The notes under the pieces: model-generated
The model's database searches: none
Told to the model about the DNA's origin: nothing
What the model saw: the letters and a program-made list of their open reading frames with translations, nothing else
Made by a program: the position numbers and the translations under genes
Shown here: one piece after another, positions 2,104 through 38,571 of the stretch
Layout: the number at the start of each line of letters is the position of its first letter
How positions within the stretch are numbered: position 1 is the first letter of the stretch
NCBI GenBank assembly: GCA_002928735.1
Contig: PERL01000019.1
Span: forward strand, 1 to 38,571
Origin: Hyphomicrobium sp.
Lineage (GTDB): Bacteria; Pseudomonadota; Alphaproteobacteria; Rhizobiales; Hyphomicrobiaceae
Length of the DNA: 38,571 nucleotides
Direction: 5' to 3'

Positions 2104-2257
2104 ACGCGCATGGGACGGCCTAATGCCGCCCTCCCAAAATTACAGATCCCGCCCCCCTGTTCCCCCCGTGACAGCGCGGCGGCCGCACCTCCCCTATACC
2201 TGTCCTCATCGAAGTGAACCGGCCCTGAGCGGCCAGCAACGGAAAGAGGATACGCCG

Positions 2258-2512
2258 ATGTTCAAGTCCATCTCCAAGCCCGCCGCCCTGATCCTGGCTC
2301 TGACCGCCGGTGCGTTCGGCGCACTTCCCGCCGAAGCCGGTGGCCGCGGCAAGGAATATTTCTCCCAGACGTACGTGTCGAAGAAGCCCATGCACGGCTA
2401 CGAAGGCCGCGCCGGCGACTACTATTGCAGCTACGTCCGCATCCCGGTTCACAAGACGATCAACGGCCGCATGAAGGTCGTCGCCTGGACGCTGCAGCAG
2501 CACTGCTACTAA
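2258..2512 (+). CDS. Small secreted protein, 84 aa, unknown function
   Basis: Start chosen at the ATG at 2258 because it follows a GGAAAGAGGA ribosome site and opens a clear signal peptide: MFKSISKPAA, a hydrophobic run, then a likely cleavage after ALPAEA near residue 27. The mature part is about 57 residues, basic and tyrosine-rich, with two cysteines (YYCSYVR and QQHCY) that could form a disulphide in the periplasm. I know no family with certainty. It stands alone between the Crp/Fnr gene and a stem-loop terminator, so it is probably its own transcription unit. Confidence 0.75.
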   Translation: MFKSISKPAALILALTAGAFGALPAEAGGRGKEYFSQTYVSKKPMHGYEGRAGDYYCSYVRIPVHKTINGRMKVVAWTLQQHCY

Positions 2513-2552
2513 GCATTCGGAGCTTCCCCCCCTTTTCCCACAAAAGCGCGCG

Positions 2553-2580
2553 CGGCCCTGGAGCAATCCGGGGCCGTTTC
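2553..2580 (+). terminator. Stem-loop terminator after the 84-aa secreted protein
   Basis: CGGCCC-T-GGA pairs with TCC-G-GGGCCG around a GCAA tetraloop (T opposite G as a wobble pair), giving a 10-pair stem followed by a short TTT. It sits about 40 bases after the small secreted protein gene. Confidence 0.6.
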
Positions 2581-2637
2581 GCGTCGCGCTACGCGCGCGG
2601 ACCAAGTGTGCGGGACCGCGCGCGTGTCAAGATTGCG

Positions 2638-3324
2638 CTATCGCGCCCGCCCCAAGGTCGCGACGGTGCAGTCAATCAACTCCAGCATGTCGTTGGTGGA
2701 GAGTTGCGCGCCGGCCCGCTTGGCCTCCGTCCGGAACTCCGGCCGGTCGTCACTGGAGAAGATGAAAAATGGGATCGGATTGCCCGCCCCGCGCAGTGCC
2801 GCGAGCAACTCGTATCCCGCCCGATTATTCGTGCCCCGGCCCATGTCGGAAATGACGAGATCGAACATGCGCCCCTGCACGGACGCCAGCGCCGCCTCCG
2901 TGCTCGTCACCTGCACCACGTCGAGCATCAGTTTGCGCAGCGCCCGCATGGCCAGTTCGTTGTTCGCCGGGTTGTCGTCCACCCACAGGATGGACCGCCC
3001 GATCAAGTGATTGGTCATTTGCGGATCGAAGGCCCGTTCCACCGTCGCGCGCAGCCGGCCCATGTCGACCCCGCCATCCCCGGTCTTCGCCTGCCAGTCG
3101 CGCGCCGCGGTCGCCGCCGCCGTCATGGCCTCTTCCTGCAACTGAAACCGCAGCGGCCCCACGTTGACGCTGCGAATGGCGTTCGCCCGCCACGCCCGCC
3201 AGATCAGAAAACCGCCGAGCGTCCAGCCGAGTAGATTGACGATGGCGCTCAGCGCTTCGGCCGCGTCGAACATGGCGCGGTTCTCGGCAACGAATGTCAG
3301 AAAGGCTTGGGCGAAATCCGGCAC
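2638..3324 (-). CDS. Membrane-anchored receiver-domain protein (atypical response regulator)
   Basis: A 228-aa protein with one predicted membrane segment near residues 26 to 44 (LSAIVNLLGWTLGGFLIW), a linker, and a C-terminal receiver domain from about residue 110. The acidic pair is D116-D117 (SILWVDDNPAN), the phosphoacceptor is Asp160 (DLVISDMGRG), and the strand-4 Ser is present (FFIFSSDD). The usual strand-5 lysine is not seen: the equivalent region reads GAQLSTND. There is no output domain, so the receiver itself, fixed at the inner membrane, is the likely functional end. It starts 4 bases after the periplasmic-protein gene ends, so the two probably form an operon. Phosphorylation chemistry may be altered without the lysine. 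Confidence 0.8.
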   Translation of the reverse strand: MPDFAQAFLTFVAENRAMFDAAEALSAIVNLLGWTLGGFLIWRAWRANAIRSVNVGPLRFQLQEEAMTAAATAARDWQAKTGDGGVDMGRLRATVERAFDPQMTNHLIGRSILWVDDNPANNELAMRALRKLMLDVVQVTSTEAALASVQGRMFDLVISDMGRGTNNRAGYELLAALRGAGNPIPFFIFSSDDRPEFRTEAKRAGAQLSTNDMLELIDCTVATLGRAR

Positions 3325-3328
3325 GCGC

Positions 3329-3988
3329 CTACCACGCGTCGCGCCAGAGCGGCAGCGCCATGGCGCCGTTCGGGATCGTCACCGTGCCGCGCTTATCGAC
3401 GCCGCCGTTGACGCCAAGTTCGCCCGCGAATTTGTTGACAATGTCGGCTTTCAGCCCCGCCGAGGCATCCCCCGCGAATTGCAGCGCGTATTCGAACCGG
3501 CCGACCGCGAGGCGCACGATCTGGAATTGATTGCGGTTCGTGTCGCCCTTCGGGTTGGCCGAACCCAGGCAGCGCTTGCGCAGTTGCACGAGCTTGCTCT
3601 CGTCATACTCATAGACAGTGCCCGTGAAGGTGAGGTTCACACCCGTCACGTATTGGCCCTTGAACGACGCATTGAGAATGTTCGCCCAGCCAGCCGAAAG
3701 CCCGAACGACTTCTGATCGTGCGAGGTGAAGGCCGCGCCCTCGAGCGCCTGGCTAAATCCGTCCTCGTCGAACTTGGCGCGGCAGCGCACCATGTTCACC
3801 TTGAGCAGCCGGTCGCCGGTGCGCTGATACGTGCGCTTGTCGAGATGCCCGCGCGCAATCGTGCCCGGCGTGTAATACGCTAAAGGCGGCGACATGCGGA
3901 TGACGTTGAGATTATCGAAGATCGAATCCGCCGCAGCCGGACCGCTGACAGCCCAAAAAGATAGAAACGCAAACCCGAACCGACGCAT
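3329..3988 (-). CDS. Secreted/periplasmic protein of unknown function, 219 aa
   Basis: Start at 3988 is chosen for its GGGGTGA ribosome site and because it opens a signal peptide (MRRFGFAFLSFWAVSGPAAA, cleavage near residue 21). The mature protein begins DSIFDNLNVIRMSPP and holds two cysteines (MVRCRAKF and RKRCLG). The sequence is beta-rich, with alternating hydrophobic residues in VTGVNLTFTGTVYEYD. I do not recognise the family. It is upstream of, and almost touching, the membrane-anchored receiver gene, which suggests a shared envelope function. A start further upstream is open but would bury the signal peptide. Confidence 0.7.
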   Translation of the reverse strand: MRRFGFAFLSFWAVSGPAAADSIFDNLNVIRMSPPLAYYTPGTIARGHLDKRTYQRTGDRLLKVNMVRCRAKFDEDGFSQALEGAAFTSHDQKSFGLSAGWANILNASFKGQYVTGVNLTFTGTVYEYDESKLVQLRKRCLGSANPKGDTNRNQFQIVRLAVGRFEYALQFAGDASAGLKADIVNKFAGELGVNGGVDKRGTVTIPNGAMALPLWRDAW

Positions 3989-4101
3989 CACGATCACCCC
4001 CGCACAACAACGGGTGCAATCTAGCCGGTCCCCATCCTGCGGGAGAAGCGCAGCCATGGCCGCGGCGTGTAATTCGCCCCCGTTGTAACCTTAAAGCAGC
4101 A

Positions 4102-4125
4102 CCCCCGCCCGGTGAGGGGCGGGGG
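4102..4125 (-). terminator. Candidate terminator after gltA
   Basis: A perfect nine-pair stem, CCCCCGCCC with GGGCGGGGG, and a six-base loop, about 7 bases past the gltA stop. On the minus strand it is followed only by a weak TTT, so termination may need help. Confidence 0.5.
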
Positions 4126-4131
4126 CTCAGG

Positions 4132-5442
4132 CTAAAGCGGGAATTCGCGGCGTGGCGGGCCGACATAGAGCTGCCGCGGCCGGCCGATGCGCTGTTCGGG
4201 ATCTTCGATCATCTCGCGCCACTGCGCGATCCAGCCGACGGTGCGCGCCACGGCGAAGAGCACCGTGAACATTTCAACCGGGAACCCGATCGCCCGCAGC
4301 GTAATACCCGAATAAAAGTCGATGTTAGGATAGAGCTTCTTGGAGACGAAATACTCGTCCTGCAGTGCGATCTTTTCCAATTCCATCGCCACCCTGAGGA
4401 GCGGATCGTCGCGCTTGTCGAGCGCATCCAGCACCTCGTGACAGGTCTTCTGCATCACTTTCGCGCGCGGATCGTAGTTCTTGTAGACCCGGTGCCCGAA
4501 GCCCATGAGCCGGAAGCCGGACGACTTATCCTTCGCCTTGGCGATATACTCCGGAATGCGTTCGACCGTGCCGATCTCCTGCAGCATGGTGAGCGCTGCT
4601 TCGTTGGCCCCGCCATGCGCCGGACCCCACAAACACGCGATGCCTGATGCAATGCACGCGAACGGATTGGCGCCCGACGAACCGGCAAGCCGCACCGTTG
4701 AAGTCGACGCGTTCTGTTCGTGATCGGCATGCAGGATGAAGATGCGGTCGAGCGCGCGGGCCACCACCGGATTAACGATGTAGGGCTCGCACGGCACCGC
4801 AAAGCACATCTGCAGGAAGTTCGACGTGTAGTCGAGATCGTTGCGCGGGTAGATGAACGGGTGACCGATGGAGTACTTGTACGCCATCGCCGCAATCGTC
4901 GGCATCTTGGCGATCATCCGGTTGGTCGCAACGCGCCGGTGCTCGGGATTATTGATGTCGGTCGAGTCGTGATAGAACGCCGACAGCGCGCCGACAACGC
5001 CGACCATGACCGCCATCGGATGCGCGTCACGGCGGAACCCGGTGTAGAACCGCGTCATCTGCTCGTGCACCATCGTGTGGTTCGAGATGGTGCGCCGGAA
5101 TTCGCGGAACTGCTCGTTCGTCGGCAGTTCACCGTTGAGCAGAAGGTAGCACGTCGCCAGGAAGTTCGAGTGCTCGGCGATCTGTTCGATCGGGTAGCCG
5201 CGATAGAGCAACTCGCCCTTGTCGCCGTCGATAAAGGTGATCTTCGAGGCGCAATTGGCCGTCGAGGTGAACCCCGGATCGTAAGAAAAACAGCCGGTGT
5301 CCTTATACAACTTTCCGATGTCCATGACCGACGGGCCGATGGAGCCGTGGCGCAGAGGAAACTCGGTCGGCTTGCCCTGATAGGTCAGCGTCGCGCTCTC
5401 TCCGCTCGCTTCGGCGGTGGGGGGCTGTTCCTGGTACGTCAT
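4132..5442 (-). CDS. gltA: Citrate synthase (type II)
   Basis: Condenses acetyl-CoA and oxaloacetate to citrate in the cytoplasm, the entry step of the TCA cycle. At 436 aa it matches the length of the large Gram-negative hexameric enzymes. Diagnostic stretches are [18 protein letters not shown], the histidine regions [16 protein letters not shown] and [10 protein letters not shown], and [18 protein letters not shown] containing the active-site His. The ATG at 5442 follows an AAGGAGA ribosome site; an in-frame extension to 5550 lacks conserved sequence. It lies downstream of gltX on the same strand with 164 bases between, where a promoter can be seen, so it is probably transcribed on its own. 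Confidence 0.97.
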
Positions 5443-13227: not shown

Positions 13228-15039
13228 ATGCAGGACGTACAACTGAGCTCAATTGCGGTTCTGCTCGCAGCCGCAGCGATCGCCGCCCCCATCGCCCGCA
13301 CGCTAGGGATCGGCACGGTGCTCGGCTATCTGGCCGCCGGCGCCATCGTCGGCCCCTTTGGCCTGGGCGGGCTCTTTTCCACCGGCGAAGCCAAAGAAAT
13401 CCTGCATTTGGCCGAATTTGGCGTGGTGCTCCTGCTCTTCCTGATCGGCCTCGAATTGCGCCCTTTGCGTCTCTGGTCCATGCGCGGCGCGATCTTTGGT
13501 CTGGGCGGCGCACAGGTTGCCATCACGGCCATTCTGCTGACGGCCATCGCGCTTGGCTTTGCGTTGCCTTGGAAGAGCGCCTTGTTCATGGGCCTCGCCC
13601 TTGCACTTTCGTCCACAGCCTTTGCCTTGCAGGTGATGGAAGAGAACGGCGAACTTGCCACCAAACATGGACGATTGGGATTCGCCGTCCTGCTATTTCA
13701 GGACCTCGCGGCCATTCCCCTCATCGCTCTGGCTCCGCTGTTCGCCGTCGCCTTCGTTGCCGACGCGCCGCAACTCGATCTTTTTGCCGCCGCTAAAACC
13801 ATCGGCGTAATCGCGGCCGTCGCCGGAATTGGGTGGTTGACCCTCGACGTCTTTATTCGCCTCGTCGCTCAGACCCGCGTCCGCGAAGCCATGACGGCCG
13901 CGGCCCTCCTCACGGTCGTCACGGCAGCCGCCATCATGCAGTGGGCCGGCGTCACAGCCTCACTGGGCGCCTTCATCGCCGGCGCGCTGTTGGCAGAAAG
14001 CTCCTACCGCCATCAGCTCGAAGCCGACATCCAGCCCTTTGAGGGCCTTCTGCTTGGCCTCTTCTTCACAGCAATTGGCATGTCGCTCGATCTCGACCTG
14101 CTCGTCGCCAGTTGGCGCGAAGTTGTGATCTTCGCCGCCATTCTCGTCGCGGTGAAAGCGATTGTTCTATATGGCCTCGGCCGCTGGCAGGGACTGAACA
14201 GCCGCGGTGCGCGCCGCCTCGGCCTGTCCTTGAGCCAAGGCGGCGAATTCGCCTTCGTGCTCTTTGCGGCAGGCTTCAGCGCCGGTGTGCTGACCAAGGA
14301 CACGCAATCACTCCTCGTCCTCGTCGTCACCGTCTCGATGATCGCGACACCCTTCCTGCTACTCATCGACAGCCGCCTGACGCGCAAGACGCCCGCGACG
14401 CAAGCCTACGATGCGCTCCCCGAAAGCACCGGCCACGTCGTCATCGCCGGCTTCGGCCGCTACGGTCAGATCGTCGCCCGCATCCTGCGCGCGCGAAAAA
14501 TCCCCTTCACCGCCCTCGACATCGACGCCGAGCAAGTCGAACTCGTCAAAAAATTTGGGTCTGAAGCCTTCTTCGGCGACGCCTCCCGCCCCGACATTCT
14601 GGAAGCCGCCAAAGTCGGCGACGCGCGTGCCCTCGTGCTCGCCATCGACGACGTGGAGGCGTCGCTGCGCATTGCCGAGTTCGTGACGTCGACGTGGCCG
14701 AAGGTGCCCATCTACGCCCGCGCCCGCAATCGCAACCACGCGCACCGCTACCTCGATCTCGGCGTCGCCCGCGTCCAGCGCGAAACCTTCCTCTCAGCGC
14801 TCGAAACAACCAAGCAACTTCTAAAAGGTCTGGGCGACACCGACCGCGAAGCCGAACGCACCGTCAAAACCTTCCGCGCCCACGACGAACGCCGCCTCGC
14901 CGAAGACTACAAACATTACACCGACATGGAAAAGATGCAGGCCAAAGCCCGCTCCGACGCCGCCACACTCGAAAACCTTTTCGAAGAAGACGCGAAAGAA
15001 ACGGCAGCCGCAGCAGCAAAGGCGAAGGCAGCGGAGTAG
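13228..15039 (+). CDS. KefB/KefC-type monovalent cation:proton antiporter (CPA2)
   Basis: Predicted inner-membrane antiporter of 603 aa, exchanging K+ (or another monovalent cation) for H+. About twelve membrane segments fill residues 1 to 385 (start MQDVQLSSIAVLLAAAAIAA; GTVLGYLAAGAIVGPFGLG; LSSTAFALQVMEENGEL; FQDLAAIPLIAL). A TrkA-N/RCK nucleotide-binding domain follows from about residue 405 (HVVIAGFGRYGQIVARIL, ALDIDAEQVELVKKFG, FFGDASRPDILEAA), then a charged, probably coiled C-terminus. The ancillary KefF/KefG-type subunit gene is not adjacent. It is divergent from rpoE, whose promoter lies in the 77-base gap. Kef proteins are gated by glutathione adducts in enteric bacteria; that is not shown here. 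Confidence 0.92.
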   Translation: MQDVQLSSIAVLLAAAAIAAPIARTLGIGTVLGYLAAGAIVGPFGLGGLFSTGEAKEILHLAEFGVVLLLFLIGLELRPLRLWSMRGAIFGLGGAQVAITAILLTAIALGFALPWKSALFMGLALALSSTAFALQVMEENGELATKHGRLGFAVLLFQDLAAIPLIALAPLFAVAFVADAPQLDLFAAAKTIGVIAAVAGIGWLTLDVFIRLVAQTRVREAMTAAALLTVVTAAAIMQWAGVTASLGAFIAGALLAESSYRHQLEADIQPFEGLLLGLFFTAIGMSLDLDLLVASWREVVIFAAILVAVKAIVLYGLGRWQGLNSRGARRLGLSLSQGGEFAFVLFAAGFSAGVLTKDTQSLLVLVVTVSMIATPFLLLIDSRLTRKTPATQAYDALPESTGHVVIAGFGRYGQIVARILRARKIPFTALDIDAEQVELVKKFGSEAFFGDASRPDILEAAKVGDARALVLAIDDVEASLRIAEFVTSTWPKVPIYARARNRNHAHRYLDLGVARVQRETFLSALETTKQLLKGLGDTDREAERTVKTFRAHDERRLAEDYKHYTDMEKMQAKARSDAATLENLFEEDAKETAAAAAKAKAAE

Positions 15040-15059
15040 CGCGCGCCTCTCTCTCCCCC

Positions 15060-15104
15060 GTCATCCCGACGCGCGCCCACCCCCAAATGTCATCCTCGGG
15101 CTTG
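15060..15104 (+). repeat. Intergenic repeat fragment, left flank of the R-M island
   Basis: Two tandem starts, GTCATCCCGAC (15060) and GTCATCCTCGGGCTTG (15089-15104), resemble the common alphaproteobacterial intergenic palindrome of the GTCATCCCGGGCTTG type. The second stretch recurs in the opposite orientation at 18466-18481, beyond the restriction-modification genes. Confidence 0.5.
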
Positions 15105-15228
15105 CCTGCCCCGGCGCAGGCCGGTGTCCAGAGCACCCATGGTTCAACAGTCTCGAACCCGGCGGGGGTGGCAGGGACGGCGGCAGTGTTCTAGTTTCGG
15201 GTGCAGATTTTAGGGTGGGCGGGGCAGG

Positions 15229-16164
15229 ATGCGCGCGGAAGAGTTTATTACGAAGTGGAAGAATTCCGATCTCAATGAAGCACAGGGGGCAAAGCAGCAT
15301 TTTCTGGAGCTGTGCGACGTTCTCGACGTGCCAAAGCCGAAGACGACGCGGGCCGATGGCTACGGCTTCGAGGTGAACGTCGATAAGTCCGGTGGTGGCG
15401 CCGGATATGCGGATGTCTGGAAGAAGGGCTGCTTTGCCTGGGAGTATAAAAGCCCCGGAAAGAATCTTGGCGAGGCGCTGAAGCAACTCAAGCTCTACGC
15501 CAGCGATCTCGAAAATCCGCCGCTTCTCATTGTATCCGACATGCGCAGGATCGAATTGCACACGAACTGGACCAACATGGTCCAGGAAAAGCACGTGCTC
15601 GAGATTGATGAATTGGCCGATGTGCGGCTTCGGCAGAAGCTCAAGTGGGCGTTCGACGAAACGACACTGCCAGAATTGAAGCCTCGGCGTTCGGCCAACG
15701 CCACGACAGAAGAGGTCGCCGAAAAGTTTGTCCGCATCGCGCAGAATCTGCGCGAGATGGGGCACGATCCCGAAAAGGTCGCGCACTTCGTCAACCGGAT
15801 GGTCTTCTGCATGTTTGCGGAAGATGTGGACCTGCTGCCGAAGAAAATGTTCCAGCAGATGCTGGAAGCAAGTCTCCACGAGCCTAAGCAGTTCGTGCGC
15901 AATGCCGAACAGCTCTTCAAGGCCATGGCCGAGCGCGACGGCATGGTGGGCTATCAGGCCATCGAGTGGTTCAATGGTGGACTTTTTGAAGACGGCACGG
16001 CGCTCCCCCTGTCCGAAGTTGACATTCGTGTCGCGCTCGACGCTGCCCAACAGAATTGGGCCGAGATCAACCCCTCGATCATGGGCACGCTGTTCGAGCG
16101 CGGGCTGGACCCATCGAAGCGCTCGCAGTTGGGTGCGCACTATACGACGCCGAGAAGATCATGA
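15229..16164 (+). CDS. Type IIL enzyme, N-terminal nuclease and helical part (311 aa)
   Basis: This piece carries the DNA-cutting half. The catalytic signature is Asp62 and Glu72-x-Lys74 in GYADVWKKGCFAWEYKSPGK, followed by the KQLKLYASDLENPPLLIVSD strand typical of the MmeI-like nuclease fold. The rest is helical (EEVAEKFVRIAQNLREMGHD; FVNRMVFCMFAEDVDLLPKK), the spacer that links to the methyltransferase. It ends LGAHYTTPRRS; the GAHYT motif belongs to the methyltransferase junction and contributes to the SAM site in related enzymes. In this family cutting needs the methyltransferase part for DNA recognition, so this fragment alone is probably inactive. It begins 189 bases after the antiporter gene. 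Confidence 0.75.
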   Translation: MRAEEFITKWKNSDLNEAQGAKQHFLELCDVLDVPKPKTTRADGYGFEVNVDKSGGGAGYADVWKKGCFAWEYKSPGKNLGEALKQLKLYASDLENPPLLIVSDMRRIELHTNWTNMVQEKHVLEIDELADVRLRQKLKWAFDETTLPELKPRRSANATTEEVAEKFVRIAQNLREMGHDPEKVAHFVNRMVFCMFAEDVDLLPKKMFQQMLEASLHEPKQFVRNAEQLFKAMAERDGMVGYQAIEWFNGGLFEDGTALPLSEVDIRVALDAAQQNWAEINPSIMGTLFERGLDPSKRSQLGAHYTTPRRS

Positions 16165-18143
16165 TGATCGTGCGGCCGGTGATCATCGAACCGCTGTTGC
16201 GCGAGTGGGCGGAGGTGCGGGGGCAGATAGAAGCCCAGTTTGCAAAGGCCAAGGAAGCCAAGGAGGCGCGACCTACGGGCAAGGCTGACCCCACCCGTTT
16301 CTATCAGGGCCGGCGGCAGGTGGAAGAAGCAGCCAAGCGCGAAGCCCGGCGCTTGATGGATGAGTGGATAGAACGGCTGAAGAACTTCCGTGTGCTCGAC
16401 CCGGCGTGCGGCTCCGGCAATTTTCTCTATGTTGCGCTGAAAGAGCTGAAGAACATCGAACTTCGGACGAACTTCGAGTTTGAAGAGATCTCACGCGAGT
16501 ACGACGTGCCGGTCGGCATGTTTGTGCCAAGCGTCGGGCCGGAGTGCGTGAAGGGCATCGAGATCAACCCGTTTGCGGCGGAGTTAGCGCGCGTTTCGGT
16601 GTGGATCGGTGAAATCCAGTGGATGCGCGAGAAGGGCTTCGGTGTTTCGAAGAACCCGATCCTGAAGTCGCTGGAGACTATCGAGTGCCGCGATGCGCTG
16701 CTCAACCCGGACGGTACAGAAGCCGAATGGCCCGAGGCGGATGTGATTATTGGGAACCCGCCGTTTTTGGGTGACAAGAAGATGATTTCAGCAATGGGGG
16801 CTGATTACGTTGGGAGACTTCGAGGCGTTTTTGACGATCGGTTGGCAGGCGGCGCCGATTTTGTCTGCTATTGGTTCGCCAAGGCGGCGGATCATTTGTC
16901 TGCCTCGCGAACAGATCTTTGTGGGTTTGTAGCAACTAATTCAATTCGTGGTGGTGCTAACAAGTCGGCCCTCAGTGGAGTGGCGAAAGTAGCTCGCTTT
17001 TATGCCGTTTGGAGTGACGAGCCTTGGACCGTTGACGGTGCAGCAGTTCGCGTCTCAATAGTTTGCTTCGAACGCGGTGAAGAGAATGATGTTTTCTTGG
17101 ACGGCAAGCCTGTCGCGCGAATTTTTTCTGACTTGACCAGTGACGTAGATGCTGGCCGCGCCGATGTTCTGTCGTCGAATCTCGCAGTAGCGTCGAACGG
17201 TATATCGAAGAAAGGCGCGTTCGACATTGAGGGCGAGACTGCGCGCAACTGGATACTATCGCCACGGAATCCAAATGGCCTGGGAAACGAGAGCGTTCTG
17301 CGTCCTTGGTTCAACGGGGCGCACGTTGTCCAACGATGGAATGACAAATGGATTATCAACTTCGGAGAATTGGTTGAGTCAGAGGCAGCGTTGTTTGAAA
17401 AGCCTTTCGGTCATGCGAAGCAATTCGTTCATCCGGAGCGACAAAACAGTCGGGCTTCCGGTGAGAAGAACCGTTGGTGGCTGTTAGCTCGCCGTGCTCC
17501 GGCGCTATTTTCTCGACTTAAGTCTTGCTCGCGCATGTTAGTGACACCTGAGGTCGCCAAACATCGTGTTTTTGCCTGGCTGCCGACGAGTGTAGTGCCG
17601 GATAAAAACTTAGTCGTGTTCACCCGAGATGATGATACTTCGTTTGGTGTGCTGCAGTCCAAATCGCACCGTCTTTGGTCTTTGCGTTTGGGCACGTCGT
17701 TGGAAGACCGCCCCCGCTACACACCCACCACCTGCTTCGAAACCTTCCCCTTTCCCGAGGGCCTCACGCCGAATATCCCGGCGGCGGATTACGCAAACGA
17801 TCCGCGCGCGATCGCGATTGCCAAGGCGGCGGCGCGGTTGAACGAGTTGCGGGAGGCCTGGCTCAATCCACCCGATCTCGTGCAGCGCGTGCCGGAGGTC
17901 GTGCCGGGGTATCCGGATCGCATTCTGCCGGTGGACGACGCGGCGGCGGCCATCCTCAAGAAGCGCACGCTCACCAATCTCTACAACGAGCGGCCCGCGT
18001 GGCTCGACATGGCGCACAAGGATTTAGATGCAGCGGTCGCCGCCGCCTACGGCTGGCCCGCCGATCTCTCCGACGATGAGATTTTGGAGCGGCTGTTCAA
18101 GCTCAATCAGGAGCGGGCTGCGAAGCAGGGTGGCACGCCATGA
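16161..18143 (+). CDS. Type IIL enzyme, C-terminal N6-adenine methyltransferase part (660 aa)
   Basis: Methyltransferase half, beginning MMIVRPVIIEPLLREWAEVR if translated from the ATG at 16161, whose last bases overlap the preceding TGA (ATGA, 16161-16164). A weak GAGAAG site lies upstream. SAM motif I is DPACGSGNFLYVAL (from 16398), the acceptor motif ECVKGIEINPFAAELAR follows, and catalytic motif IV is NPPFLGD (from 16755), the class typical of N6-adenine methylation. The target-recognition region, about 17000-17690, is visibly poorer in GC than its surroundings. If made alone, the piece lacks the GAHYT motif. It overlaps the next gene by four bases (ATGA at 18140). Confidence 0.75.
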   Translation: MMIVRPVIIEPLLREWAEVRGQIEAQFAKAKEAKEARPTGKADPTRFYQGRRQVEEAAKREARRLMDEWIERLKNFRVLDPACGSGNFLYVALKELKNIELRTNFEFEEISREYDVPVGMFVPSVGPECVKGIEINPFAAELARVSVWIGEIQWMREKGFGVSKNPILKSLETIECRDALLNPDGTEAEWPEADVIIGNPPFLGDKKMISAMGADYVGRLRGVFDDRLAGGADFVCYWFAKAADHLSASRTDLCGFVATNSIRGGANKSALSGVAKVARFYAVWSDEPWTVDGAAVRVSIVCFERGEENDVFLDGKPVARIFSDLTSDVDAGRADVLSSNLAVASNGISKKGAFDIEGETARNWILSPRNPNGLGNESVLRPWFNGAHVVQRWNDKWIINFGELVESEAALFEKPFGHAKQFVHPERQNSRASGEKNRWWLLARRAPALFSRLKSCSRMLVTPEVAKHRVFAWLPTSVVPDKNLVVFTRDDDTSFGVLQSKSHRLWSLRLGTSLEDRPRYTPTTCFETFPFPEGLTPNIPAADYANDPRAIAIAKAAARLNELREAWLNPPDLVQRVPEVVPGYPDRILPVDDAAAAILKKRTLTNLYNERPAWLDMAHKDLDAAVAAAYGWPADLSDDEILERLFKLNQERAAKQGGTP

Positions 18144-18427
18144 TTGAGTTGATGATGATGGCGGTCGCTTTGATTTTGCCGGCGCTGCTCGGCGTGGCAC
18201 TCGCCAAGCATTCCCGGTCCGCCATGGACCAACATGATCTTTTCTACGACCCATATTGGATTGCGGGTGGGTTTGCCCTCGTCATTTGTGCGGGCTTGTT
18301 TGGCGCGTTGTCCGAAGAGGCGGCAAAGTCACTGGGGCATTGGGTGCGTTACATCGGCGGGCTGAGTGCGATTATTGCACTCGTCGGCTTTGCCGTCGGC
18401 CGGTTTGTCGTCAAGGGGGAGGATTAG
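18140..18427 (+). CDS. Small three-segment membrane protein coupled to the R-M gene, 95 aa
   Basis: Unrecognised small inner-membrane protein. Three hydrophobic segments are seen, near residues 2 to 22 (IELMMMAVALILPALLGVAL), 40 to 57 and 70 to 88 (YIGGLSAIIALVGFAVGRFV), with a short charged loop (KHSRSAMDQHDLFYDP) between the first two. Its ATG overlaps the methyltransferase stop (ATGA, 18140-18143), so it is translationally coupled to the restriction-modification gene. A role in the defence locus is inference from that coupling; it may equally be an unrelated passenger of the island. It is followed by an intergenic repeat that closes the island. Confidence 0.6.
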   Translation: MIELMMMAVALILPALLGVALAKHSRSAMDQHDLFYDPYWIAGGFALVICAGLFGALSEEAAKSLGHWVRYIGGLSAIIALVGFAVGRFVVKGED

Positions 18428-18454
18428 CGCAATATCTGTACCTGTCGCGCGATG

Positions 18455-18481
18455 GGTCCCGGGAACAAGCCCCGGGATGAC
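18455..18481 (-). repeat. Intergenic palindromic repeat, right flank of the R-M island
   Basis: CCCGGG arms (TCCCGGG, loop AACAAGC, CCCGGGA at 18458-18478) form a seven-pair hairpin. Read on the minus strand it starts GTCATCCCGGGGCTTG, 15 of 16 identical to 15089-15104 on the plus strand, so the island is bracketed by inverted copies. Confidence 0.55.
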
Positions 18482-18631
18482 AGCGGTGGGTCGAGCGCGA
18501 TGGTGCATCAAACTCGCCCGCGCGCACCCCGCCCCGCGTGTCAAAACTATGGCGCTCGCGCCCCCTTTAATTCTTCTTCATCTCCGATCCATCATCCCCA
18601 CGCGCCACGTTCGAAGCCTCGTTGTGTCCCC

Positions 18632-18689
18632 CCCACACCCGCAAGACGAGTGTGGGCCAGCAGCCCCACACGCGCCTGCGCAGTGTGGG
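18632..18689 (+). promoter_or_regulatory. Leader with four alternately complementary 7-mers before the fasciclin gene
   Basis: CCCACAC (18632-18638), GTGTGGG (18650-18656), CCCACAC (18665-18671) and GTGTGGG (18683-18689) alternate, so hairpins 1:2, 2:3 and 3:4 exclude one another. The last element ends 11 bases before the GAGG ribosome site of the next gene. The layout is that of an attenuator or translation switch; function is inferred. The rest of the 285-base gap upstream (18428-18631) holds only the repeat listed separately. Confidence 0.4.
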
Positions 18690-18712
18690 CCATCAAACAA
18701 GAGGTCTCCCCA

Positions 18713-19183
18713 ATGAAGTTCGTCAAACTCATCGCCGCTGCTGCGGTGCTTGCGCTGTCGGCGGCATCCGCCAGTGCAGCCAACATCGTCGAGACGGCCA
18801 AGAGCGCCGGTCAGTTCAAAACGCTGCTGACGGCCGCCAAGGCCGCCGGTCTCGTGCCCGCCCTGAAGAGCAAGGGCCCGCTGACCGTGTTCGCACCCAC
18901 CGACGCCGCCTTCGCCAAGCTGCCGAAGGGCACGGTGGCCTCGCTCTTGAAGCCCGAGAACAAGCACAAGCTTGCCCGCCTCTTGAAGTATCACGTCGTC
19001 GCCGGTGAAATTGAAGCCGCCGACATCAAGCCGGGCCGCAGCCACGTGAAGACGCTGGCCGGCAAGTCGGTCACGGTCCGCAAGCACGGCGGCGTGACGG
19101 TCAATGGCGCCCGCGTGGTCACCGCCGACGTGGGCGCCTCCAATGGTGTCATTCACGTCATCAATCGCGTTCTCATACCATAA
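18713..19183 (+). CDS. Secreted fasciclin (FAS1) domain protein
   Basis: A 156-aa exported protein. Signal peptide MKFVKLIAAAAVLALSAASA with cleavage near residue 23, then a single FAS1 domain filling the mature chain. Its two conserved stretches are GPLTVFAPTDAAFAKLPKGT and NGVIHVINRVLIP, with LLKYHVVAGEIEAADIK between. FAS1 domains take part in adhesion or cell-surface interactions; single-domain secreted forms are common in alphaproteobacteria, with roles mostly unknown. The ATG at 18713 is fixed by a GAGG site and the signal peptide. Its leader has alternating complementary 7-mers. It is a single gene after the R-M island. Confidence 0.9.
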   Translation: MKFVKLIAAAAVLALSAASASAANIVETAKSAGQFKTLLTAAKAAGLVPALKSKGPLTVFAPTDAAFAKLPKGTVASLLKPENKHKLARLLKYHVVAGEIEAADIKPGRSHVKTLAGKSVTVRKHGGVTVNGARVVTADVGASNGVIHVINRVLIP

Positions 19184-32612: not shown

Positions 32613-32774
32613 CGAACCGGCAAGCCGCTTCCCGCTGCGCGCCCATTGCGCCTTGAATTCGCATCTGCCTCCGTCTAAGGCCTTGGCCCAACGGCGGCAG
32701 TGCGCTCCAGCACGACATACCGGGGCAACACATCGAGCCGCCCCCAAACGCGACTGGCACAGAGCAGAGGCGAG

Positions 32775-36257: not shown

Positions 36258-37433
36258 TTAACGCAGCAGTGTCCGGATGGCCGTCTCCAACCCCTCCAGC
36301 GTGAGCGGATACATCCGCCCCCCCATCAGCCGCTGCATGATACCGATGGACGGCGTCCAACTCCAGTGCTGGTCGGGGAGGGGATTGAGCCACACGGCAT
36401 TGGGGTAGCTGGTCAGCGCCCGGTTCATCCAGATATGCCCAGCCTCCTCGTTCATGTGCTCCACCGAACCACCCGGATGCGTGATCTCGTAGGGGCTCAT
36501 GGACGCATCGCCGACGAAGATCAGCTTGTAATCGGACGGATAAGTGTGCAGCACATCCCAGGTCGGGATCGTCTCCGTGTAGCGCCGCGCATTGTCCCGC
36601 CACACCCGCTCATAGAGGCAGTTGTGAAAGTAGTAGTATTCGAGATGCTTGAATTCGCTGCGCGCGGCTGAGAACAACTCCTCGACGCCCTTGATGTGCC
36701 AGTCCATCGACCCGCCCACATCGAAGAACATCAAAACCTTCACCGCATTGCGCCGCTCGGGCCGCATGTGAATGTCGAGGTGACCCTTCTCCGCCGTGCC
36801 GCGAATGGTGCCGGCCAGATCGAATTCATCCGCCGCACCCGAGCGCGCGAATTGCCGGAGCCGCCGCAGCGCCACCTTGATATTCCGCGTGCCCAATTCA
36901 ACATCGCCCGCGAGATCTTTGAACTCGCGCTTGTCCCAAACCTTGATCGCGCGCTGGTGCCGGCTTTCATGCTGCCCGATGCGAATGCCGGCCGGGTTAT
37001 AGCCATACGCCCCGAACGGAGACGTGCCGCCTGTCCCGATCCACTTGTTGCCGCCTTGGTGCCGCTCCTTCTGTTCCAGAAGACGCTCGCGCAGCGTCTC
37101 CATAATTTTCTCCCAGCCTCCCAGTTCCTCGATCTTGGCTTTCTCTTCGTCGGTGAGATAGAGCGCGGCCACCGCCCGCAGCCACTCGTCGGGAATGTCG
37201 GCCTCGATCGCCTCGCTCATCAGGTCGAGGCCCTTGAACACATGCCCGAACACTTGATCGAATTTGTCGAAGTGCCGCTCGTCCTTAATGAGCGTGAGCC
37301 GCGCCAAATAATAGAAATCCTCGACTTTGCCGTTGGCGCAACCCGCATCCATGGCCTCCAACAGCGCCAGATATTCCTTCACGGAGACCGGCAGCCGGGC
37401 CGAACGCAACTCTGAGAAAAACTTGGTGAGCAT
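36258..37433 (-). CDS. CoxE-type von Willebrand factor A domain protein
   Basis: A 391-aa cytoplasmic protein of the VWA_CoxE group. The N-terminal part is helical (MLTKFFSELRSARLPVSVKE), a linker with WIGTGGTSPFGAYGYNPAG follows, and the VWA domain starts near residue 230. The metal-site motif is FFDVGGSMDW (residues 238-244), where the usual DxSxS reads D-V-G-G-S. CoxE-like proteins usually work with a MoxR-type AAA+ ATPase in protein or metal-centre maturation, but none is found beside this gene. The ATG has no clear ribosome site and is preceded by a GGGGTCAG inverted repeat. Confidence 0.85.
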   Translation of the reverse strand: MLTKFFSELRSARLPVSVKEYLALLEAMDAGCANGKVEDFYYLARLTLIKDERHFDKFDQVFGHVFKGLDLMSEAIEADIPDEWLRAVAALYLTDEEKAKIEELGGWEKIMETLRERLLEQKERHQGGNKWIGTGGTSPFGAYGYNPAGIRIGQHESRHQRAIKVWDKREFKDLAGDVELGTRNIKVALRRLRQFARSGAADEFDLAGTIRGTAEKGHLDIHMRPERRNAVKVLMFFDVGGSMDWHIKGVEELFSAARSEFKHLEYYYFHNCLYERVWRDNARRYTETIPTWDVLHTYPSDYKLIFVGDASMSPYEITHPGGSVEHMNEEAGHIWMNRALTSYPNAVWLNPLPDQHWSWTPSIGIMQRLMGGRMYPLTLEGLETAIRTLLR

Positions 37434-37449
37434 TGCAAAATCTTAGATC

Positions 37450-37481
37450 GGGGTCAGCCTCCTGAGAAGGGGTCTGACCCC
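37450..37481. repeat. Inverted repeat GGGGTCAG ... CTGACCCC
   Basis: An eight-pair perfect inverted repeat with a 16-base spacer, between the porin and the VWA gene. The half-site GGGGTCAG also occurs at 11673-11680. It could be a mobile-element-related palindrome or a leader hairpin of the VWA gene. Confidence 0.4.
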
Positions 37482-37494
37482 ATTATCTCAAAAC

Positions 37495-37525
37495 GGAAAA
37501 GGGCCGCCCGTTTCCGGGCAGCCCT
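37495..37525 (-). terminator. Rho-independent terminator of the porin gene
   Basis: On the minus strand AGGGCTGCCCG and CGGGCGGCCCT form an eleven-position stem with one mismatch around GAAA, followed by TTTT. It lies 26 bases after the porin stop. Confidence 0.85.
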
Positions 37526-37550
37526 CAACCAGATGGGAGCTCTGATCAGA

Positions 37551-38571
37551 TTAGAAGTTGATCAGACCACCGACGCCGACGTACTGGAAATCTTCCAGAC
37601 CGCCAGCACCAGCAAAGGCCGCATCATCATTGGTTTCAATCGACAGATGACGGTACTTGACCCAAACCGACATGGCAGCAGCATCAACCTCCTGCACGAC
37701 ACCGAGACCCCAAACTTCGGTCTCGTCTTCCGTGAGAAACGGGTTGCCAGCAACCGCGAGGTCAGCCTGGGACAGGGCGTCCTCGCCCTGAGCGTTCAGG
37801 TACTCGCCGTAGAACACCGTCGCGCCGAGGTGGTTGAACTTCGTCCGAAGACCCGCCTTGATGTAGTGGGTATCGGACTCGCCAGACGTGTCGTTCGGGA
37901 AGACGCTGGCCACGTTATCGATCTCGTTATGCCCATAGTTGTAAAGGGCAAAGAGACCGGTAGCAACGTGCTGAACATAAACGCCAAGCTGGAAGTACTC
38001 GTTGTCGCCACTCTGCCCCAAACCGGCGTTAACGCCCGTCTGCACCTGATCCGTCCACTCGTTGTAAGCCGCAGCAACTGCCAGCTTAAAGCCATGGTGC
38101 TCGCCAGCGTAGCGACCAGCAACATCCCACATGTCGTCTTCACCCCAAGAGGCGCTGACCGAGAAGCCACCGAACGTGGGGGAGTCGTAACGGACGACGT
38201 TGCGCGTCAGGCCGTTGCAGTCGCCCCATGCGCCGCCCTGGCCACCGCAGTAGCCGCCGCCCCAAACGAGGCCGCTGTTGCCGCCGTTACCGGTCCGGAT
38301 TGCGAACGAGTTGACGTCGTACGCGACCCAGTTGGCGGGAACGAGCGAGCCCGAACCGTCGACGAGGATTGCGGTGTTGTCAGACGCCTGCGACTGCTTG
38401 CCGACGCCCAACTTGCCGAGTTGGTCAGACTTGACGAACCAGTAAGATTGTAGCGTCTGGACGCCGCTCGTCGTACCGACGAGAGCAGCAGGACCGACAG
38501 GTCGATCAGCGTTAATCGTCAGCGAATCCGACGAGATGGCCTCGATGTGCAGGACGTAGCCAGCCGACCAG
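37551..38571 (-). CDS. Outer-membrane porin, N-terminus cut by the window edge
   Basis: At least 339 codons on the minus strand are open to the window end, so the signal peptide lies outside. The protein has the alternating aromatic/hydrophobic strands of a 16-stranded trimeric porin (for example FGGFSVSASWGEDDMWDVAG, HHGFKLAVAAAYNEW, FALYNYGHNEIDNVA) and ends in the classical C-terminal Phe (YVGVGGLINF) used for outer-membrane insertion. It is acidic (many D/E) and contains two nearby cysteines (GGYCGGQGGAWGDCNG) that could form a disulphide in an external loop, which is unusual for porins. It would carry small hydrophilic solutes across the outer membrane. A TTG at 38411 is in frame but is not the start. 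Confidence 0.85.
   Translation of the reverse strand, partial: WSAGYVLHIEAISSDSLTINADRPVGPAALVGTTSGVQTLQSYWFVKSDQLGKLGVGKQSQASDNTAILVDGSGSLVPANWVAYDVNSFAIRTGNGGNSGLVWGGGYCGGQGGAWGDCNGLTRNVVRYDSPTFGGFSVSASWGEDDMWDVAGRYAGEHHGFKLAVAAAYNEWTDQVQTGVNAGLGQSGDNEYFQLGVYVQHVATGLFALYNYGHNEIDNVASVFPNDTSGESDTHYIKAGLRTKFNHLGATVFYGEYLNAQGEDALSQADLAVAGNPFLTEDETEVWGLGVVQEVDAAAMSVWVKYRHLSIETNDDAAFAGAGGLEDFQYVGVGGLINF

Follow-up and report, generated by a model that had tools for sequence, protein, structure and literature searches.

The window (the whole 38,571-nt stretch of DNA that was analysed) carries an MmeI-like (type IIL-type) gene that is read as two open reading frames (ORFs), 15229-16164 and 16161-18143. 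The features on which the following sections rely are:

15159 to 18451, no strand assigned: inserted block with the restriction-modification gene, recognised by its absence from the congeneric genomes G003, G002 and G004 and by its GC content
15229 to 16164, plus strand: N-terminal piece with the MmeI nuclease domain and helical spacer, GAHYT and then a short wrong-frame tail (Pfam, translation)
16132 to 16146, plus strand: GAHYT codons (MmeI residues ~312-316), stranded on the nuclease piece (alignment)
16144 to 16152, plus strand: site of the frame break, where a base present in G382 is missing; the aligner sets the gap at 16146 (nucleotide alignment)
16161 to 16164, plus strand: ATGA, a new stop over an in-frame ATG, from conserved K-I-M-M codons (sequence, homologue codons)
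16161 to 18143, plus strand: C-terminal piece, i.e., the methyltransferase without GAHYT, the target recognition and the C-terminal domains (Pfam)
18140 to 18427, plus strand: 95-aa ORF inside the block, membrane-like as judged by eye, its ATG lying over the stop of the C-terminal piece (ATGA)

A gene in two reading frames

The upstream ORF encodes 311 amino acids, its translation ending in ...LGAHYTTPRRS*, while the downstream ORF, counted from the ATG at 16161, encodes 660 amino acids with the N-terminus MMIVRPVIIEP. The TGA at 16162-16164 overlaps the ATG at 16161-16163, so that the gene is indeed split exactly at an ATGA, as a preliminary description of this DNA had it. The fused gene of about 971 amino acids that was postulated there agrees with the sum of both pieces (311 + 660 = 971) and with the similar length of the uninterrupted counterpart (954-964 residues) in G382, a genome of the same family and the closest relative found. 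Nucleotide alignment with G382 opens a gap of a single base at window position 16146, in line with the missing base previously proposed near 16147; the other small gaps set by the aligner are in diverged stretches or offset each other. No single-base run longer than two occurs within 16132-16170, and no slippery heptamer was seen by eye at the junction. A purine-rich stretch lies immediately upstream of the ATGA overlap.

The cut lies inside the methyltransferase domain

In Pfam, the N-terminal piece matches PF20464 (E 5e-11) and PF20465 (E 6e-15), i.e., MmeI_N and the MmeI spacer, and the C-terminal piece matches PF20473 (E 3.6e-33), PF20466 (E 6e-8) and PF20467 (E 1.4e-5; 25.6 bits, just below its cut-off of 27). 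The MmeI domain order (nuclease, spacer, methyltransferase, target recognition, C-terminal) is present across both pieces; in G382, all domains stand in one chain, whereas the window gene loses the frame at ~16146. PADLOC returned the same best model for both pieces, the type IIG enzyme-methyltransferase PDLC03627, among solved structures both match MmeI (5hr4) best, and NCBIfam gave weak matches only, all under cut-off. The earlier assignment to the MmeI type (type IIL-like) therefore holds as one made by domain architecture only; type IIL is defined by modification of one strand only, which protects the host. The genome itself has one gene with the MmeI methyltransferase family, the one in the window.

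The nuclease motif D-x9-E-x-K (PD-(D/E)XK) and the adenine methyltransferase motifs I and IV (DPACGSGNF and IIGNPPF) are all present, confirming that both halves keep their catalytic residues. GAHYT, part of the motif X that helps to hold the methyl donor, aligns to MmeI residues ~312-316. In the domain description of MmeI, the spacer covers residues 156-300 and the methyltransferase domain residues 301-620 (PMC4833311), and the cut is thus located inside the methyltransferase domain and not between domains. Upstream of the break, the downstream frame does not encode GAHYT, whichever start is taken, but unrelated residues, so any product of that frame would be without it. The motif sits on the nuclease ORF and is split off the methyltransferase piece, as had been noted before. 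Neither piece, therefore, has the complete methyltransferase domain including GAHYT in one chain that we expect of a DnmA-like orphan.

Relatives are open across the junction

The homologue set consists of the best 80 of at least 574 relatives, of which 79 reach the junction (L016 is cut by a contig end). In 79 of 79 spanning loci among these best 80, GAHYT and the methyltransferase stretch that follows it are in one open frame. Within the order, 18 of 397 genomes (own included) have a match at E <= 1e-60. The N-terminal and C-terminal parts of G382 are 75% and 62% identical, respectively, to those of the window gene, and its junction is open, with no shift, in the sequence GAHYTDAEKIMMIVRPV. 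Searches with the N-terminal part at E <= 1e-50 gave matches in 14 of 385 genomes of the class and in 6 of 398 of the phylum, own included in both counts. With the exception of the window's own genome and G268, these matches have reported open frames of at least 465 residues, the shortest of which (G605) continues into the methyltransferase up to the contig end.

We checked 69 further loci from other genomes, among them several that represent one and the same gene. GAHYT was located in 48, and all of these stay open for at least 60 residues beyond it; the shortest, a distant (31%) copy in G029, stops 60 residues past the motif. The remaining 21 fall short of the junction, carry a variant of the motif, or belong to the broken copies of G268, G404, G900 and G014 (at most partly checked by eye). 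The window's split occurs in none of the 69, the motif being found in only 48. The alignment with homologues that the preliminary description had proposed as a check thus gives a break not common to relatives, the 79 spanning loci and G382 being unbroken at the junction. A split common to relatives, the mark of a natural two-gene form, is not what the 79 open loci have, and we reject an evolved, shared split, which none of the 69 further loci carries either. The literature searched contained no type IIL gene with a split at the same place, although the print record could still hold one.

Relatives broken at other points

Interruptions elsewhere in the gene are present among the relatives. Four of the 79 loci (L019, L033, L044 and L069) have in-frame stops 258-293 residues after GAHYT; these stops fall in one 35-residue stretch, and the homology continues beyond them in the same frame. 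In L065, the frame changes in the N-terminal part; G170 is open at the junction and has a stop ~210 residues after GAHYT; G404 has a frame change within the methyltransferase part. In the MmeI-like gene of G900 (L178, about 2190-4616, minus strand), an in-frame deletion removed the junction; the spacer now runs directly into sequence past motif I of the methyltransferase, and the frame stays open over 825 residues. The G014 copy is cut after residue 260, near a contig end, and is followed by sequence resembling a transposase end. G268 has an in-frame TAG in the N-terminal part as well as its own frame break, a few codons beyond that of the window, different in place and outcome and without a stop/start overlap. 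Lying so near, the G268 break counts against "each broken elsewhere" in a strict sense.

Plasmid searches matched 397 records; three of the 15 listed (H3, H4 and H15) were opened, chosen mostly for two features under or beside the match, a selection that gives no rate. The homologues on these plasmids of Azospirillum thermophilum, Lichenicola cladoniae and Roseinatronobacter sp. S2 are each annotated as two neighbouring MmeI-type ORFs, like the window gene, but the three interruptions lie elsewhere, each at its own point: one is a frame change, and in the other two cases the ORFs share a frame. In Roseinatronobacter sp. S2, the break is upstream of GAHYT and the second ORF keeps the motif, unlike in the window. 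The broken gene of the Azospirillum thermophilum plasmid (L180 2848-6985) adjoins a cas9 that is annotated as two overlapping ORFs.

Origin of the ATGA overlap

K-I-M follows GAHYT in 57 of the 79 homologue loci, often as (D/E)KIM. Where a further M comes next, the two codons ATG ATG hold both an in-frame ATG and a TGA one frame over, overlapping as ATGA; all 17 homologues with K-I-M-M have it. With the frame shifted as in the window gene, 21 of the 79 unbroken homologues would have a stop/start overlap (TGA over an in-frame ATG), corresponding to 20 of the 77 distinct junctions, and 19 of these 21 potential overlaps fall at the same codon; the other shifted frame would give such an overlap in 0 of 79. 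The exact overlap is therefore expected from the conserved codons when a frame loss of such kind occurs just upstream. The ATGA is a by-product of conserved K-I-M-M, with no sign of selected translational coupling, an origin under which re-initiation at the ATGA may still take place. Where a frame is broken, a perfect overlap of stop and start may look designed and yet be only the shadow of conserved codons.

The gene lies in an inserted block

The block lies between two genes identified with Pfam, on one side that of a cation/proton antiporter (13228-15039) and on the other that of a fasciclin (18713-19183). In G003, which lacks it, the counterparts of window positions 15158 and 18452 are only 49 bases apart, and the block is also missing from G002 and G004. 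Its GC content is 57.7% versus 63.2% for the window. No repeats at the block ends were reported in window 14900-18800. Between the same two neighbour genes, G005 carries a different, uninterrupted MmeI-like gene of 1213 amino acids, 30-32% identical, while G001 has no counterpart of the antiporter gene above 34% identity. The antiporter/fasciclin slot (L129, L130, L131, L132), where the G005 gene is non-orthologous, is perhaps a small turnover site for MmeI-like genes. The window gene does not occur throughout its genus. The turnover of MmeI-type genes is illustrated here by one slot that is occupied, filled differently in one congener and empty in three, and by several relatives that are broken.

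On another contig of G004 (L134 6184-6520), two fragments ~100 bases apart are 86-90% identical to parts of window 17995-18129, at the end of this gene; they are what is left of a close relative and may have spread together with a small repeat. The ORF at 18140-18427 belongs to no Pfam family and has no homologue among the loci compared. Promoter and terminator scans gave 2 and 7 hits versus 0.9 and 4.1 in shuffles, respectively.

Conservation of the pieces and quality of the assembly

Of the positions conserved at the 95% level, the N-terminal piece of the window gene has lost 3 of 56 (rank 6 of 85, median 0; G382: 4 of 57). For the C-terminal piece, the figure is 4 of 157, which ranks 20 of 85 against a median of 1.3% (G382: 3 of 157). 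At the 90% level, the losses are 7 of 101 and 11 of 201, respectively, as compared to 11 of 101 and 8 of 201 in G382. Advanced decay of either piece is thus not seen: the losses exceed the medians but are comparable to those of G382, so the break, if real, would be recent. The near-intact pieces fit a very recent break and would fit equally an assembly error or continued use.

Some 33 kb of the window align to the sister genome G003 at 90-91%. We tested 39 sister ORFs, 11 of which have no match of >75% identity; of the 28 that do, some over part of the ORF only, 27 align in one frame, the lone exception being found where a short ORF near 32730 begins. Frame errors are therefore uncommon in this stretch, and a generally noisy assembly is unsupported at the protein level. 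The many raw nucleotide gaps versus G003 were judged to be mostly intergenic, poorly conserved or offsetting. Unlike most of the window, the stretch 37416-38450 has many small gaps against G003 and is fast-diverging or non-coding.

Probably a recently broken gene

We consider it probable that a horizontally gained MmeI-type gene has become a pseudogene or near-pseudogene through a single, recent loss of frame by one base directly behind GAHYT. We infer that the break is real in the cell, recent and inactivating, and that the gain was horizontal. An MmeI-type restriction-modification gene would have entered the genome by horizontal transfer and then, recently, have lost its frame by a single base just past GAHYT. 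The upstream piece would be nuclease and spacer only and should not cut specific sites, having neither a complete methyltransferase nor a target recognition domain. The downstream piece could arise by re-initiation at the ATGA overlap and would most likely be inactive, since it lacks the beginning of the methyltransferase domain and GAHYT with it. The whole restriction-modification system would be lost, and since cutting and modification would go at the same time, the host would probably suffer no harm. On this analysis, there is most likely no active restriction enzyme, and methylation is probably absent, as reported for Cj0031/Cj0032 (PMC3526280); what remains is most likely a broken MmeI family gene of an ordinary kind.

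A missing base may also be an assembly or sequencing error, the organism having an intact one-chain MmeI-type enzyme of ~971 amino acids. Both pieces are otherwise intact, with a conservation about that of G382, and all 79 spanning homologues (among the best 80 of at least 574) are open at this point, as would be expected of an error; against it, 27 of 28 matched sister ORFs are single-frame, the longest base run at the break is two, and several kin are broken too. We hold an error to be rather unlikely and, in our judgement, a real mutation is clearly the more likely of the two.

The preliminary description had also considered a two-subunit form or an orphan methyltransferase, a reading that the comparison does not support: no examined homologue shares the split, the cut is within the methyltransferase domain, and the ATGA is explained by the K-I-M-M codons. 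Its alternative, damage rather than design, is made the more likely by the open junction of the relatives, the cut inside a domain and the origin of the ATGA from conserved codons. A working split enzyme, whose two pieces are made by translational coupling across the ATGA and then join again, or else an orphan methyltransferase started at 16161, would draw on the overlap and the purine-rich stretch directly upstream, on the conserved positions mostly kept in both pieces, and on DnmA of B. subtilis, a relative of MmeI described as persisting as an orphan methyltransferase (PMC9973331). We regard either as very improbable, since GAHYT is severed from the rest of its domain, the overlap is accounted for by conserved codons, every relative examined is without the split, and a frameshifted type IIG gene is reported to have shown no methylation (PMC3526280). 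The more particular case of a real, tolerated break, where ATGA-coupled pieces re-associate and the nuclease chain supplies GAHYT in trans, is more improbable again; beyond the explained ATGA and the good state of both pieces, a split enzyme finds little support. On/off switching or programmed frameshifting at the junction would have a parallel in H. pylori genes, type IIG among them, described as switched by frameshifts in base runs (PMC3936762), but is scarcely credible here: the junction has no base run longer than two, a slippery heptamer was not seen by eye, and G382 reads through unshifted. With no slippage-prone repeat in 16132-16170, slippage and phase variation are rejected.

Comparison with known systems

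The Campylobacter jejuni NCTC 11168 pair Cj0031/Cj0032 is phase-variable at a base run. Like the window gene, it is a type IIG gene split by a frameshift into two neighbouring genes (PMC3526280). Its frameshift was confirmed by SMRT reads and the corresponding modification is described as absent (PMC3526280), whereas the break in the window is read from the assembly sequence. In H. pylori, a type III methyltransferase gene split by a frameshift is likewise reported to give no methylation (PMC3936762). DnmA (YeeA) of Bacillus subtilis, an MmeI homologue, is an orphan from a relic restriction-modification system; it is described as an active methyltransferase without the nuclease motif, in an account that mentions no break inside the methyltransferase domain (PMC9973331). 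MmeI itself (PDB 5hr4; PMC4833311) has, as described there, the same domain order as the window gene, with which its nuclease D-x9-E-x-K and its GAHYT align; in contrast to the one-chain MmeI, the window gene consists of two ORFs, with the frame lost just after GAHYT.
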